64,000 nucleotides of DNA from contig JACPYX010000019.1 in NCBI GenBank assembly GCA_016195815.1, positions 62,001-126,000 on the forward strand. The letters run 5' to 3'. Below are positions 18,602 through 57,588 of this stretch, in pieces. Origin of the DNA: Chloroflexota bacterium. GTDB taxonomy: Bacteria; Chloroflexota; Anaerolineae; Anaerolineales; Villigracilaceae. Below the pieces are notes generated by a model. It was given only the letters and a program-made list of their open reading frames with translations, ran no database searches and was not told where the DNA came from. How positions within the stretch are numbered: position 1 is the stretch's first letter; each line of letters begins with the position of its first letter. The translations under genes and the position numbers were made by a program.

Positions 18602-18614
18602 ATTTGTCTCCTCT

Positions 18615-18700: not shown

Positions 18701-20089
18701 TTAATCCTGCGCCCCAATGAGCACAGATTCAACGTCAACTGATTCGCGCAAGGCCGCATCGGGCCCGGCCAGAGCGTATTTCTTCATCAGATGGAAATCT
18801 GCGGCGGCCAGCGCGCCATAGACGACCGCATAGCCGATCAGCGAGATGAGCAGGTCAACCGTTGTGAGATTGGGCGAAACCGCATCCTGCACTTTGAGAA
18901 GGCCTTGCACGATCCACGGCTGGCGGCCCATTTCGGTCAGAATCCAGCCGCTGGAATTGGCGATGTAAGGCAGAACGATGACCCATGGAACCCATTTCAT
19001 CCATTTGGTTTTGGTGATGTCGCCGCGCAGGGCGAGCAGGAAGAGAGCCGAAAGCAGGATCATCAAAAGACCGGTCAACATCATGAAGCGGAAAGTCCAG
19101 TATGTGACGACCATCAACGGGATATAATCGCCGGGGCCGTATTTCTGTTCGTACTCGGCCTGAATGTCATTCACGCCGCGCACTTCGCAGTTGAAATTAT
19201 TGCAGGCCAGGAAACTGGTGAAGCCGGGCAGGCGCAACGACCAGACTTCTTTTTTGCCGCTCAAATCGCCGATGGTCAAGATCGAAAACGAAGCGGGCTT
19301 TTCGGTTTCCCAAAGCGCTTCGATGGATGCCATCTTCATCGGCTGAGTCTGATAAATGTATTGGCCTTGCGTGTGTCCACCGAGGAAGACCAGCACACTA
19401 GAGACCAGACCGACGATGGCCGCGATCTGGAACGAACGCTTGAACAGGTCGGCGTAGTTGGTTTTGCGCACGAGGTGATAAGCGCTCACGCCCAAAATGA
19501 GGAAGCTGGCTGTGGCAAGTCCGGCAGAAATGGTATGCCAGAAGAAAATCCAGCCTTTGGGATTGGTGATGACCGCGAAGAAGTCTACCATCTGCGCGCG
19601 GCCGGTTACTGCGTTGATAACGTAGCCGACGGGATGTTGCATCCAGCCGTTGGCGAGAAGAATCCAGAGCGCGGAAAGATTCGAGCCAATGGCCACCAGC
19701 CAGATCGAAGCGAGGTGGACTTTTTCAGGCACGCGGCCTTCGCCGAAGATCCAGATTCCGAGGAAAGTAGATTCCATGAAGAAGGCCATTAGGGCTTCGA
19801 TGGCCAGCGGGGCGCCGAAGATGTCGCCTACGAAGCGGGAATACTCCGACCAATTCATGCCAAACTGGAATTCCTGAACGATGCCCGTCACAACGCCGAT
19901 GGCGAAGTTGATCAGGAATAATTTTCCCCAGAACTTCGCCATCTTGCGGAAGGTCTCATCCTTCGTCTGGTAATAACGGGTTTGCATGAATGCGACGAAC
20001 CACCCCAGTCCCAGCGTGAGCGGGACGAACAGAAAGTGGTAGACAGTTGTGAGTCCAAACTGCCATCGCGAAAGAGTGATAGGGTCCAT
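18701..20089 (-). CDS. cydA: Cytochrome bd ubiquinol oxidase subunit I
   Basis: CydA, 462 aa, the haem-bearing subunit that oxidises quinol and reduces oxygen. The ligands are in place: His18 (haem b595 type), Glu98 and Glu106 in IEALMAFFMEST, and the conserved EMGRQPW near 340. The protein is about 60 residues shorter than E. coli CydA, consistent with a short Q-loop. The start ATG follows AAAGGAG by 8 bases. Upstream, cotranscribed, is an Rrf2 regulator. The operon supplies a high-affinity oxidase for microaerobic growth or oxygen defence. Confidence 0.97.
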   Translation of the reverse strand: MDPITLSRWQFGLTTVYHFLFVPLTLGLGWFVAFMQTRYYQTKDETFRKMAKFWGKLFLINFAIGVVTGIVQEFQFGMNWSEYSRFVGDIFGAPLAIEALMAFFMESTFLGIWIFGEGRVPEKVHLASIWLVAIGSNLSALWILLANGWMQHPVGYVINAVTGRAQMVDFFAVITNPKGWIFFWHTISAGLATASFLILGVSAYHLVRKTNYADLFKRSFQIAAIVGLVSSVLVFLGGHTQGQYIYQTQPMKMASIEALWETEKPASFSILTIGDLSGKKEVWSLRLPGFTSFLACNNFNCEVRGVNDIQAEYEQKYGPGDYIPLMVVTYWTFRFMMLTGLLMILLSALFLLALRGDITKTKWMKWVPWVIVLPYIANSSGWILTEMGRQPWIVQGLLKVQDAVSPNLTTVDLLISLIGYAVVYGALAAADFHLMKKYALAGPDAALRESVDVESVLIGAQD

Positions 20090-20113
20090 ACATTCTCCTT
20101 TACAAAATTTTCA

Positions 20114-53785: not shown

Positions 53786-56674
53786 ATGTATCTCTTCTCT
53801 GAATTTCAAGTTTTTCCTTTTTTTATTTTGATGGTCCTCTGGGCGGTTGGGGGCTGGTTGATCTCCGCCCGCTTATTCGACCTGAAACCGGTCGAGCGCC
53901 ACCTGGTTGGATTCAGTCTCGGCCTGATTCTGAGCAACTGGCTGTCCAATCTTTTGACGCGCATCCTGCCAATGCCCTTTGCTTTCTGGGCTTCCGCCTT
54001 GATTGTCCTTGGGGGAGGCATCCTGCTCGCCTGGCCCATGCGAAAAGATCTGCGCTTAATGCTGTCCTTTAGTTGGGGTCAATGGCTGGCTTTTGCTCTT
54101 CTGGCTTTTTTCTTTACCCTCATCAATCGCGGCCTTGCGATGCTCGATGATTATGCACATTTACCGCTCGTATCCATTATGGGAGCGGGTAATATTCCGC
54201 CTCAATTTCCGTTGGATCGGAATATCAACTTTGGCTATCATTACTTCCTGCTTCTGTTGGGCGCACAATATATGCGGGTGGCAGGTGCCGCACCCTGGGT
54301 CGCGCTGGATTTGGCGCGCGGCCTGACGATGACTCTGTTTTTTCTGCTGGCGGGCTTATTGGCCTACTGGATCACTGACCAGCCTATGGCGCAAGTGTGG
54401 GGAACTTTTTTTGCAGCATTGGCTGGCGGTTCTCGCTGGCTTCTATTGCTCTTGCCGCCGTCTATTGTGAGCGCTATCTCAGCCAGCCTGCATTTATTGG
54501 GCTCGACCGGGCAAAACGGCGCCACTCTCGCAAGCTTGATTAATGGTCCGTGGCTCATTGACGGATCGGGCCCGGTTCCATTCCCCTTTGCCTTTGTCAG
54601 CGGAATCAATAATCCGAGCAACATGGCGCTTTCTGGGACTGGGTTATTCCCGTTTCTTATCGTCGTGACGCTGGTCTTAACTGCGCCGCGCATCCGGCAT
54701 CGCCTGGCCTGGCTCATCATTAGTATTCTATTGGCTGCCTTGCCGCTTGCCAACGAAGTCGTTTTTGGCATGTTGGGTTTTGGGCTGGGGCTTGCCATCC
54801 TCTTTTGGTCAATACGAAACCGGTCGCTTCGCTTTCCGCCATCGTTGAGAAACTGGATTTTGGTTTTCGTCGTGAGTGGATTCGTCGCCGCTTTTCAAGG
54901 CGGGATGTTGACCGAAATCGCTCGAGGCTTGCTCTTCAAAAATCCGGCAGCCCAGTCTTCCTATTACGATGTGGGCTTTCGTTTGGTCTGGCCGCCGACG
55001 ATTGTTTCGGCTCATTTGGGAAGCCTTTCCTTGATCCAGCCTCTTCAGCTTTTGATGGCCCTGTTGGAAATTGGCCCGGTCTTTCTGGTCTTTCCGCTTC
55101 TTCTTGTTAGAGGCTGGAAACAGCTATCAGGCGAAAATTGGCTTGAAGCAGGCGTGTTGTTTTCCGGCCTCGTCAGTTTTGCCGCGTTCTTTATTGAGTA
55201 CTCTGGTACGGGCGGTGTGCGAGAGACCGTCCGGTTGTCCGGGTATTTCCTGATGCCGGCAACGATCTACGCCGTACCATTGGTATGGCTATATATTCAG
55301 AAAAAGCGCCAGGCATTCCATATCCTTGCACTTACAGGCGCACTGATAACCGTTTTGAGCGGCATAGTGCTGTTGTCTGTTCAGCTCTATGCAATGTCCA
55401 AACCGGTCGTGTCGTATTACATGAATGATCTGGACGCAAAGGCATACCAGAAATACTGGAATCGCCTTCCTTCAAACGCAATGGTATTCGATCCCGATTC
55501 GGGACGCGCTGTGACCATCTTCGGGCGTTACACCAATACCAGCGACTCATGGTATAGCGACAAACCGGAATATACGGCGCTGGTGCAAGCGCCCGATCCG
55601 TATGCTGTTCGCGCCGCGGGATATGATTATATGTACTACAATTATTTTTACTGGCTGGCGAATAAAAAATTCCTCGCCATCGAAACCTCCTGCGATGAGA
55701 CCGCCTGCGCGATTCTCGAAAACGGACGCGCCTTACTCGGCTCTACGGTCGCCTCGCAAATGGATATTCACGCGCGCTACGGCGGTGTCTTTCCTGAAGT
55801 CGCTTCGCGCCAGCATGTGCTTTCGATCATCCCGGTGGTTGAAGAGACGCTTTCAAAGGCGCACCTCACATTGAATGATATTGATGCCATCGCGGTGACG
55901 CGCGGCCCGGGACTGGCCGGTTCGCTTGTCGTCGGAATGAATGCCGCAAAAGGCCTGGCCCTCGGCACGGGACTTCCGCTCATTGGTGTCAATCATCTTG
56001 AAGGACATCTTTATTCTGCATGGGTTCACATCGCAGGTGAGTCTATTCCCGAAGAGCCGCAGTTTCCATTGATGGCCTTGCTCGTTTCCGGCGGACACAG
56101 CGAACTTAACCTGATGACCGATCATTTGACATATAAACGCCTCGGCTCCACACTGGACGACGCGGCGGGTGAGGCCTTCGACAAAGTCGCGCGTCTGCTG
56201 GGACTCCCGTACCCGGGCGGCCCGTCCGTTCAGCGTGCCGCGGAAGACGGCGACCCGATGCGTTTCAACTTTCCGCGCGCCTGGCTCGAAGGAACGTGGA
56301 ACTTTTCATTTAGCGGAATCAAAACCGCCGTCCTGCGCGAGTCGAAGGAGTATCAAACTAAAGGACGGTCAATGCCGGTGCCTGATCTGGCCGCGTCATT
56401 CCAGGCCGCGGTCGTGGATGTTTTATTCAACAAGACCATGCGCGCCGCACGCGAATTTGGCGCGAAAGAAATCATTGTGGCTGGCGGCGTTTCGGCCAAC
56501 CGCGTTTTGCGCCAGACTTTTCAGAATCAAAAGGAATTCAAAGTCCATATTCCCCCGCTATGGCTTTGTACCGACAACGCCGCCATGATTGGCGCGGCAG
56601 GTTATTATCGCCTTGCGTTGGGCCACACATCTCAGTTGGATATGGATGTTCAGCCAACCTGGCCGCTTTCATAA
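53786..56674 (+). CDS. tsaD: Membrane protein - TsaD fusion (tRNA t6A transferase subunit)
   Basis: A 962-aa frame joining two unrelated parts. Residues 1-540 hold about 12-13 membrane helices of a GT-C-like polytopic protein and 540-625 a soluble tail (YAVRAAGYDYMYYNYFYW). Residues 629-962 are a complete TsaD: FLAIETSCDETACAIL, SRQHVLSIIP, HLEGHLYSAW (metal His pair) and TDNAAMIGAAG. TsaD acts with TsaB/TsaE in the cytoplasm to make t6A37 on ANN-reading tRNAs. The junction has no stop and no usual start codon for TsaD. The ATG at 55631 (residue 616) is the closest in-frame internal start, without a good ribosome-binding site. tsaC is nearby. Confidence 0.85.
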   Translation: MYLFSEFQVFPFFILMVLWAVGGWLISARLFDLKPVERHLVGFSLGLILSNWLSNLLTRILPMPFAFWASALIVLGGGILLAWPMRKDLRLMLSFSWGQWLAFALLAFFFTLINRGLAMLDDYAHLPLVSIMGAGNIPPQFPLDRNINFGYHYFLLLLGAQYMRVAGAAPWVALDLARGLTMTLFFLLAGLLAYWITDQPMAQVWGTFFAALAGGSRWLLLLLPPSIVSAISASLHLLGSTGQNGATLASLINGPWLIDGSGPVPFPFAFVSGINNPSNMALSGTGLFPFLIVVTLVLTAPRIRHRLAWLIISILLAALPLANEVVFGMLGFGLGLAILFWSIRNRSLRFPPSLRNWILVFVVSGFVAAFQGGMLTEIARGLLFKNPAAQSSYYDVGFRLVWPPTIVSAHLGSLSLIQPLQLLMALLEIGPVFLVFPLLLVRGWKQLSGENWLEAGVLFSGLVSFAAFFIEYSGTGGVRETVRLSGYFLMPATIYAVPLVWLYIQKKRQAFHILALTGALITVLSGIVLLSVQLYAMSKPVVSYYMNDLDAKAYQKYWNRLPSNAMVFDPDSGRAVTIFGRYTNTSDSWYSDKPEYTALVQAPDPYAVRAAGYDYMYYNYFYWLANKKFLAIETSCDETACAILENGRALLGSTVASQMDIHARYGGVFPEVASRQHVLSIIPVVEETLSKAHLTLNDIDAIAVTRGPGLAGSLVVGMNAAKGLALGTGLPLIGVNHLEGHLYSAWVHIAGESIPEEPQFPLMALLVSGGHSELNLMTDHLTYKRLGSTLDDAAGEAFDKVARLLGLPYPGGPSVQRAAEDGDPMRFNFPRAWLEGTWNFSFSGIKTAVLRESKEYQTKGRSMPVPDLAASFQAAVVDVLFNKTMRAAREFGAKEIIVAGGVSANRVLRQTFQNQKEFKVHIPPLWLCTDNAAMIGAAGYYRLALGHTSQLDMDVQPTWPLS

Positions 56675-56709
56675 CTGCTCGGATTGAGGCTTAGCCCCAA
56701 TCCGAGCAG
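56675..56709. other. Strong stem-loop after the tsaD stop
   Basis: CTGCTCGGATTG (56675-56686) and CAATCCGAGCAG (56698-56709) are a perfect 12-bp stem whose loop closes further with GGC/GCC. It starts right after the tsaD stop, but no U-tract follows on the plus strand, so it is a 3'-end hairpin or Rho-type end rather than a classic terminator. Confidence 0.6.
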
Positions 56710-56713
56710 TGTT

Positions 56714-56776
56714 AAAAAAACCAAACCGCGTTTTGGGTCGGCCCTGACCCTTGCGCGGTTTGTTGAGGAGAATGCA
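56714..56776 (-). ncRNA. Candidate small RNA 1 (anti-Shine-Dalgarno motif plus terminator)
   Basis: Minus-strand unit of about 63 nt. It starts about 7 nt after TATAAT (56788-56783). The 5' part carries GCATTCTCCTC, with CTCCTC at 56770-56765 complementary to a GAGGAG ribosome-binding site. It ends in a two-tier hairpin: outer CAAACCGCG/CGCGGTTTG, inner GGGTC/GACCC, then GG and seven T. It lies between tsaD and tsaC with no ORF of note. A related unit follows at 56874-56930. No Rfam family is recognised by eye. Confidence 0.6.
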
Positions 56777-56782
56777 CTTTTT

Positions 56783-56824
56783 ATTATATCCCTTGACCTG
56801 AATACAGCCTGAATAAGGATTAAG
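56783..56824 (-). promoter_or_regulatory. Promoter block of candidate small RNA 1
   Basis: A 42-bp block from CTTAA to TATAAT, alignable without gaps to 56937-56978. Shared positions include CTTAA, TTCAG(G/C)CTG centred in the -35 zone and G(G/C)ATATAAT. CAGSCTG is palindromic and could be an operator. Confidence 0.5.
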
Positions 56825-56873
56825 AATTATATGAGAGGTTTTTGCTCGAAAGAGTTGAGCGGGTCTTGTTATT

Positions 56874-56930
56874 AAACGAAAACCGCCTCAGGATTTGCCC
56901 CTTCCTGCGCGGCTTTCAGAGGAGAATGCA
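56874..56930 (-). ncRNA. Candidate small RNA 2 (paralogue of unit 1)
   Basis: Second minus-strand unit. TATAAT at 56942-56937; GCATTCTCCTC again, with CTCCTC at 56924-56919. The distance from the -10 box to this motif is 13 bases in both units. The hairpin GCCGC-GCAGGA / UCCUGA-GGCGGU then TTTTCGTTT is present but with different loop and stem sequence from unit 1. Stem divergence with a kept 5' seed is what paired regulatory RNAs show. Confidence 0.55.
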
Positions 56931-56936
56931 TTTGTA

Positions 56937-56978
56937 ATTATATGCAGGTATTTAAAAGCAGGCTGAAATGCGCTTAAG
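56937..56978 (-). promoter_or_regulatory. Promoter block of candidate small RNA 2
   Basis: CTTAAG..TTTCAGCCTG..GCATATAAT on the minus strand, the same 42-bp layout as unit 1. It overlaps the last bases of tsaC (stop TAA at 56976-56974). Confidence 0.5.
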
Positions 56979-57588
56979 CGGCGGCTAAGAGTTGTTCCAA
57001 TGAAATTGGCCCTGCACGCAAAACAATGGGCTGCCTGCCTGTGCAATCTGCCAGTGTGGATGGAATTCCGCCGGGAGCGCGGCCTCCATCAATGATTAGC
57101 GCGATACGCCCGCCGAGCTGTGCCTGGACTTCGTCTGCTGTGGCTGGACTGGGTCGGCCTGAGATGTTGGCGGATGTAACTGCCATCGGTCCGGCGGCTT
57201 GCAGTAAAGCGCGCGCAACAGGATGATCGGGTACGCGCACGCCGACGGTGTCGGTGGCAGAAACGGTTTCGGGGAGAGTTGGTAGTTTGGGGACGATCAG
57301 AGTCAAAGGTCCCGGCCAGAAGCGGGCGGCTAATCGCCGCGCCATGTCTGGAACGTTCGAGGCGATTTTGTCGAGGCCGCGCGCATCGCCGATTAGAATC
57401 GGAATTGCTTTTTCTATCGGGCGATCCTTTGCGGTATAAATTGATTCGACAGCTTTGCCATCGAAGGCAAGCGCGCCGAGGCCGTACACTGTGTCGGTCG
57501 GAAATGCCACCAGACCGCCGGCGCTCAATATTTCAAGTGCAAGTTGAATGGCGTTTTGTGATTTGGCAGAAATGACTTGTGTCTTCAT
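56974..57588 (-). CDS. tsaC: L-threonylcarbamoyladenylate synthase
   Basis: TsaC/YrdC/Sua5-type, 204 aa. It makes threonylcarbamoyl-AMP from Thr, bicarbonate and ATP for t6A synthesis with TsaD. Conserved blocks: GGLVAFPTDTVYGLGALA, KDRPIEKAIPILIGD, FWPGPLTLIVPK, VGVRVPDHPVARALLQAAGPMAVTSANISG. It lacks the extra Sua5 C-terminal domain. I chose the ATG at 57588, which overlaps the prmC stop (ATGA); a longer frame extends into prmC and is not supported. Confidence 0.95.
   Translation of the reverse strand: MKTQVISAKSQNAIQLALEILSAGGLVAFPTDTVYGLGALAFDGKAVESIYTAKDRPIEKAIPILIGDARGLDKIASNVPDMARRLAARFWPGPLTLIVPKLPTLPETVSATDTVGVRVPDHPVARALLQAAGPMAVTSANISGRPSPATADEVQAQLGGRIALIIDGGRAPGGIPSTLADCTGRQPIVLRAGPISLEQLLAAA

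Follow-up and report, generated by a model that had tools for sequence, protein, structure and literature searches.

The window, a stretch of 64,000 nucleotides, contains a 300 bp gap between tsaD and tsaC that holds two similar units, both on the minus strand and placed one after the other (Table 1). The convergent neighbor, tsaD, is part of a longer frame (53786-56674, plus strand; 962 aa) in which a 628-aa membrane-type stretch with no Pfam match is fused to TsaD; this frame has no ATG near the beginning of the TsaD homology, and its part upstream of TsaD was found in only one of 52 loci (L070, 33% identity). Directly after tsaD and before unit 2 lies a hairpin of 17 bp; it is probably the terminator of tsaD and falls outside the RNA family described here.

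Read on the minus strand, each unit consists of a block of direct repeats, a TATAAT −10 box, a seed and a hairpin, so the strand, the element order and the common plan proposed in the initial annotation of this DNA all hold. The equal distance it gave between seed and −10 box was also found by measurement: counted from the first T of TATAAT (at 56942 in unit 1 and 56788 in unit 2, minus strand), GCATTCTCCTC starts after 13 bases in both units. The predicted folds leave the 5' end free and form a single hairpin (−21.1 kcal/mol, z −1.97 in unit 1; −23.8 kcal/mol, z −3.45 in unit 2). A T-run had been ascribed to both units along with the hairpin, but only the U-tract of unit 2 is good; that of unit 1 is poor (TTTTCGTTTAA). 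Scored with a covariance model built from 18 units that included these two, the RNAs gave E values of 1.1e-10 (unit 1; 7.6e-10 genome-wide) and 4e-16 (unit 2; 2.8e-15 genome-wide).

Table 1. Features of the tsaD–tsaC gap, its flanking genes and the candidate target in the window. Position 55670 is the assumed beginning of the TsaD homology, not a start codon.
Feature	Position	Strand	Basis
cydA, cytochrome bd oxidase subunit I	18701..20089	-	Pfam Cyt_bd_oxida_I, E 2.2e-167
Candidate target site, cydA start (AGGAGAATGTATG)	20087..20099	-	Duplex energy, pattern
tsaD	55670..56674	+	Convergent neighbor; part of longer frame; Pfam TsaD, E 8.9e-94
17-bp hairpin between unit 2 and tsaD	56670..56715	.	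Fold −31.5 kcal/mol, z −9.4
Small RNA, unit 2 (~63 nt)	56715..56777	-	5' GUGCAUUCUCCUC seed, hairpin loop AGGGCC, U-tract; cmsearch, fold
Seed, unit 2: GCATTCTCCTC	56765..56775	-	Minus-strand reading, alignment
−10 box TATAAT, unit 2	56783..56788	-	Minus-strand reading, alignment, pattern search
Operator, unit 2	56796..56838	-	Four direct repeats spaced 11 bp; alignment, column counts, pattern search
Small RNA, unit 1 (~60 nt)	56872..56931	-	5' AUGCAUUCUCCUC seed, hairpin, weak U-tract; cmsearch, fold
Seed, unit 1: GCATTCTCCTC	56919..56929	-	Minus-strand reading, alignment
−10 box TATAAT, unit 1	56937..56942	-	Minus-strand reading, alignment, pattern search
Operator, unit 1	56950..56992	-	Four T-x-A/TCA direct repeats, 11-bp period; alignment, column counts, pattern match with 0 mismatches
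tsaC	56974..57588	-	Same-strand neighbor upstream of units; Pfam Sua5_yciO_yrdC, E 1.7e-57

A DNA search with the gap returned matches in all five other genomes of the same genus and in 14 of 41 genomes overall, our own included. From the 18 aligned units a covariance model restricted to the RNA was then built. The initial annotation had proposed a search of this kind and had staked its reading on the seed-to-−10 spacing and the hairpins being conserved in relatives; both are kept, and the model found the RNA in 100 of the 120 Villigracilaceae genomes searched (some of which are incomplete) and in 24 of the 26 genera of the family (best E 3.8e-16). The 20 family genomes with no match include some that are nearly complete. 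Two matches less than 350 bp apart on one strand, as in the window, occur in 12 of the 100 genomes. One or two copies are usual; four genomes (G087, G108, G092 and G045) have three to six, mostly on separate contigs. In 396 genomes sampled across the class, where 13 candidates were scored per genome and diverged copies outside the family may therefore escape, the model matched 22 genomes, 19 of them in the family, and missed two family genomes (G012 and G102) that had been weakly matched in the family search. The three matches outside the family are weak (E 7.9e-4 to 8.4e-3) and all lack AUUCUCC, the core of the seed; one of the three (L058) has only the hairpin, and the other two, both in one genus, have a CU-rich stretch resembling an anti-Shine-Dalgarno sequence ahead of theirs (see below). 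An extension of the RNA beyond the family was therefore rejected.

Genomic context was examined with an exact-pattern scan of a sequence collection (TATAAT, CATTCTCC and AAACC), for which about 13 chance matches would roughly be expected. The scan returned 70 stretches, 52 of which had the full anatomy and were kept (labeled Anaerolineales, Anaerolineae, Anaerolinea, Anaerolineaceae, Villigracilaceae, Chloroflexi or Chloroflexota); the 18 dropped before counting were 17 from other phyla and one from Chloroflexota (L095) that has neither the repeats nor the hairpin. Among the 53 units in these 52 stretches, 33 have both tsaC and tsaD within 1.5 kb, nine only tsaD, six only tsaC and five neither, and wherever a gene was found tsaD lies on the strand opposite to the unit and tsaC on the same strand. 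Given a position between convergent genes and the good terminator of unit 2, the hairpins might serve only to end tsaC and shield tsaD, with the −10 and seed match a coincidence or a relic. We regard this as very improbable, since the promoter repeats, the −10 box, the seed and their spacing are conserved, tsaD already has a separate hairpin, and five units have neither gene within 1.5 kb (four of these sit less than 1.5 kb from a stretch end, and only L118 lies farther than that from both ends).

The 42-bp upstream block that had been reported as alignable between the two units is indeed conserved, but it has further content that had escaped notice: direct repeats, four in number, that recur every 11 bp. 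When 55 units are aligned on TATAAT, positions T-46, A-44, T-35, A-33, T-24, C-23, A-22, T-13 and A-11 are invariant, and these nine positions make up four half-sites spaced 11 bp apart in 55 of 55 units, a count that holds after L095 is dropped. All nine lie outside the search pattern, the elements of which (TATAAT, CATTCTCC and AAACC) had been demanded of 53 of the 55 units. A consensus scan of positions 56600-57100 found no sigma-70 −35/−10 pair; the four repeats occupy the place of the −35. Searching six genomes with the operator pattern and allowing at most three mismatches gave nine sites, every one of them at an RNA gene (in six of six genomes), and the reversed pattern gave no matches in the same genomes. 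Activation by OmpR/PhoB-family regulators involves direct repeats at 11 bp, the last of which ends some 10 bp ahead of the −10 box, and the four-repeat layout thus has the architecture of a putative OmpR/PhoB-type activator site.

The layout also resembles that of phoU-region promoters, and we considered whether the operator might be a PHO box of the phosphate regulon. phoU was found in all 16 genomes searched, and the regions around it were scanned in 12. With the operator matrix these regions score at most about 1, the best at 0.7, compared to 20-54 for the RNA operators; the idea was therefore rejected, and the regulator of the RNA is probably not PhoB itself. Eight of the 12 phoU regions (L150-L153, L155, L157, L158 and L161) contain TTAACC-type repeats about every 11 bp before genes near phoU, as judged by eye among the listed matches and with phoU the sole gene identified there; these repeats are possibly the PHO box of the family.

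The RNA itself is conserved in structure and in its 5' end. In an alignment of 62 units, 92.0% of cells of a 13-pair structure can pair, and 10 of the 13 pairs change on both sides. None of 500 shuffles was as good; cells in which both sides changed in a compensatory manner number 113, compared to 38.5 in shuffles, and control structures slid by one to three columns pair at 25-57% and contain 15-30 compensatory cells. The seed ATTCTCC (AUUCUCC in the RNA) is invariant in all 62 units, of which 52 came from the pattern demanding CATTCTCC, two are the units of the window and eight are second copies that only the RNA model picked up; AUUCUCC is kept in all eight of these second copies, for which it was not part of the search pattern. 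Four of these second copies match the operator in register at all nine positions, two match at all nine but carry an extra base ahead of a GATAAT box, and the remaining two are diverged, with at most six of the nine. An open frame can be read in unit 2, and a very small protein might be encoded there, its translation starting from UUG at the seed; this is scarcely credible, because the stem undergoes compensatory changes and the model matches, 57-70 nt long, do not differ in steps of three.

Together, the conserved spacing and the hairpin covariation give good support at the sequence level to the proposal of two small RNAs in tandem whose seed is anti-Shine-Dalgarno. The same holds for the RNA family, the structure and the dedicated promoter, and the family, with a promoter, a 5' seed, one hairpin and a U-tract, appears distinct from those in Rfam: Rfam 15 at gathering scores has a tRNA as its sole match in the whole window and none at the units, and permissive matches at the locus are at chance level (best E 0.12). 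By sequence, the units have the traits general to small RNAs that pair with ribosome-binding sites, namely an intergenic position with a promoter and a rho-independent terminator of their own, and a conserved, predicted unpaired seed complementary to the start regions of several mRNAs. The first of these traits is qualified in unit 1, where the operator overlaps the 3' end of tsaC (which ends at 56974) and the U-tract is weak.

A further element is GGGC in the region of the apical loop, present in 51 of the 62 units on a stem that covaries (alignment A5), which suggests a second functional element. Some regulatory RNAs, such as 6S and CsrB, bind and titrate proteins, and the kept loop could mean that the present RNA is real and regulated and has a protein partner, with the GGGC loop and the 5' tail titrating an RNA-binding protein. 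The strictest conservation, however, falls on the single-stranded 5' seed, which is complementary to a Shine-Dalgarno sequence plus spacer, and complementary start sites are more common in carrier genomes as a group (see below), and we consider a protein partner of this kind quite unlikely.

If the RNA instead pairs with mRNAs, its partner should be the complement of the seed, GGAGAAU(G), which corresponds to the Shine-Dalgarno core and the first bases of the spacer. The conserved part of the seed is (C)AUUCUCC, and the terminal CUC varies among genera. The seed had been described as anti-Shine-Dalgarno and complementary to GAGGAG; the former stands, but the kept part of the seed is read against GGAGAAU(G) and not GAGGAG, so the predicted targets are defined by the Shine-Dalgarno sequence plus the spacer. 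GAGGAG-N{3,10}-ATG occurs at six places in the window, and of the examples that had been given (before cydB, hbd and dinB) we recovered GAGGAG at 18613, before the gene that follows cydA and is presumably cydB.

In the genome to which the window belongs, GGAGAATGN{0,10}ATG occurs 27 times and the reversed pattern four times. Because Shine-Dalgarno motifs are enriched in any case, we used as a fairer control the share of AGGAGAATG starts (AGGAGAATGN{1,5}ATG) among AGGAGWWWK starts. This share is 261/1456 (17.9%) in 13 carrier genomes, compared to 56/512 (10.9%) in ten genomes of the order in which no copy was found (Fisher p 1.6e-4; for five of the ten, G032, G035, G037, G038 and G039, absence of the RNA is known from the DNA search only) and 29/301 (9.6%) in three genomes of the family in which no copy was found. 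For carriers against both groups p is 1.4e-6, and 0.002 by genome (Mann-Whitney); individual shares range from 10.9 to 26.0% in carriers and from 0 to 18.2% in genomes without a copy. The window's own genome has no excess (10/92, or 10.9%, equal to non-carriers), and neither does G015. The base that follows GGAGAATG (C 48, A 41, T 28 and G 2 among 119) does not, by eye, track the variable 5' neighbor of the seed (G/A), and covariation between the seed flank and its partner was rejected. One site in a genome with no copy found (L410 in G037) precedes a protein that resembles, by eye, those at two carrier sites (L295 and L328). These counts give the predicted targets of the RNA statistical but modest support, which does not extend to the counts of its own genome.

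To characterize the proteins behind the candidate sites, we used those of the 261 carrier places that were fetched, which was most of them in seven genomes (G000, G002, G003, G019, G021, G056 and G060) and only the few loci that the search returned in six others (G005, G007, G010, G011, G015 and G018). Dropping frames shorter than 60 aa and repeats left 119 carrier proteins. For the control places in genomes of the order, 40 of 56 were fetched, of which 30 gave frames of at least 60 aa. Membrane-type segments were called with a Kyte-Doolittle window, and a background of 167 other AGGAG-start frames was drawn from the window and 40 stretches, each of 20 kb and placed at round coordinates, in four carriers (864 kb); an earlier spacer 4-mer background (718 kb) and an earlier membrane control (62/283), both from the tsaC/tsaD and phoU loci, were replaced as biased. 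Membrane or exported proteins account for 74 of the 119 carrier-site proteins, compared to 52/167 of the background (p 3e-7) and 10/30 of the proteins that follow this site in genomes where no copy was found (p 0.007), and N-terminal segments are present in 67/119 and 6/30, respectively (p 4e-4). When homologues are collapsed, the excess shrinks to 43/81 vs 46/152 (p 0.001), and the comparison with genomes without a copy gives p 0.015 for N-terminal segments and p 0.087 for any segment. Enrichment of lipoproteins was rejected, as lipobox counts are level with the background (14/119 vs 17/167; 8/81 vs 14/152 when collapsed). Both the site counts and the membrane bias of the predicted targets are therefore statistically associated with the presence of the RNA. 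Families that recur behind the sites are Band_7 (L184), YtxH, exported and lipoprotein-like proteins, and cydA.

Within the window, the predicted duplex with the cydA start (12 pairs, −17.6 kcal/mol) is the best among 55 putative genes (median −11.1 kcal/mol, runner-up −15.9 kcal/mol), and the same site is present in G002. On these predicted energies cydA is a better candidate in the cyd operon than the gene after it, presumably cydB, where the initial annotation had looked. Two further genes with the site encode a 4Fe-4S protein (L174) and an exported CxxCH-motif protein (L242). Since AATG is a favored spacer even in genomes without a known copy (10.9%) and the RNA's own genome has no excess of sites, a real and regulated small RNA might act on just one or a few mRNAs, such as cydA and other respiratory ones, while the wider GGAGAATG excess reflects a spacer habit of the family. 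The bias toward membrane proteins, however, appears in carriers and not in the examined genomes without a copy, and among the places fetched no gene family has the site in more than four genomes; we consider so narrow a set of targets unlikely.

We favor, with moderate confidence, a model in which the units encode a response-regulator-driven small RNA that pairs with start sites and lowers the translation of envelope and respiratory proteins. Each unit would be a free-standing gene for a trans-acting RNA of roughly 60 nt. A putative response regulator of the OmpR/PhoB family would bind the four half-sites, spaced 11 bp apart in place of a −35 element, and turn on transcription of an RNA whose 5' (U)GCAUUCUCC seed is unpaired and whose covarying hairpin also serves as terminator. 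The seed would pair with GGAGAAUG, that is, the Shine-Dalgarno sequence and the next bases before the start codon, and keep ribosomes off a set of mRNAs that leans toward proteins of the membrane or for export, cydA and other respiratory ones among them. Because of this leaning, the likely role would be to cut the synthesis of envelope proteins under a stress sensed by the cognate kinase. From the sequence features we infer transcription and target pairing as well as the class of the regulator, the direction of regulation and the signal. A bolder version, which we offer tentatively and think possible but doubtful, is that a single two-component system has this RNA as its dedicated output and through it restrains exported and membrane proteins generally throughout the family, that up to dozens of mRNAs per genome have evolved the GGAGAAUG start site to join the regulon, and that the RNA constitutes an RNA-based envelope stress response that arose independently of the enterobacterial sigma-E RNAs and the streptococcal csRNAs.

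Enterobacterial small RNAs of the MicA/RybB type are short, have a 5'-terminal seed, depend on sigma-E and Hfq, and repress several mRNAs for envelope proteins at or near the ribosome-binding site. The promoter of the present RNA differs, as it looks dependent on a response regulator (putative). Closer parallels come from the csRNAs of the streptococcal CiaRH regulon, which the cited passages describe as small, intergenic RNAs with several similar copies per genome (PMC3091779, PMC8186281). A response regulator controls their promoters by way of hexamers (TTTAAG-N5-TTTAAG) that recur every 11 bp upstream of the −10 box, and an unpaired stretch is complementary to the Shine-Dalgarno sequence and the start codon, with a CAU anti-AUG in 53 of 61 (PMC3091779). 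On these descriptions, csRNAs and the present RNA have in common 11-bp repeats before the −10 box, an unpaired anti-Shine-Dalgarno stretch and multiple copies. We compared them by features, and by sequence homology through Rfam only. The CiaR repeat ten bases from the −10 box is absent here: the period is shared, but there are four repeats instead of two, they end 8-9 bases instead of 10 from the −10 box, and their consensus is about TCTCAT, TTTAAG, TTCAGG and TTAAAC instead of NTTAAG-N5-TTTAAG. The complementary region, which in the csRNAs lies between two hairpins, here occupies the 5' end and is followed by one hairpin, and the phylum is another. Identity with the csRNAs was rejected on both features, as these are defined in the cited passages.

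Yfr1 of cyanobacteria, an RNA of 54-69 nt, has an ultraconserved unpaired element that contains CUCCUC (PMC2190773). The two RNAs are alike in size and in the presence of an element resembling an anti-Shine-Dalgarno sequence (PMC2190773), but in Yfr1, as described there, the undecanucleotide ACUCCUCACAC lies between two stem-loops, whereas here the core is AUUCUCC, located at the 5' end and followed by one stem-loop. As the undecanucleotide and its placement were not found here, and given the chance-level Rfam scores at the locus noted above, identity with Yfr1 was rejected. With these two csRNA features and the defining element of Yfr1 lacking, we conclude that the present RNA is a separate family, neither csRNA nor Yfr1, that is predicted to work like them. 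Among the matches listed in the open-licence literature there was no small regulatory RNA for Anaerolineae or other Chloroflexota. If the proposed model is correct, a small RNA is defined for Anaerolineales, its seed can be tested and its regulon is predicted, the operator should lead to the regulator, and one more lineage is added to those in which a signaling system feeds RNAs that pair with start sites. In another family, two loci of one genus (L056 in G363 and L057 in G235) share a CU-rich stretch with CCTCCTCCTC directly before a terminator-like hairpin; this stretch, which resembles an anti-Shine-Dalgarno sequence, possibly belongs to a different small RNA of this type.
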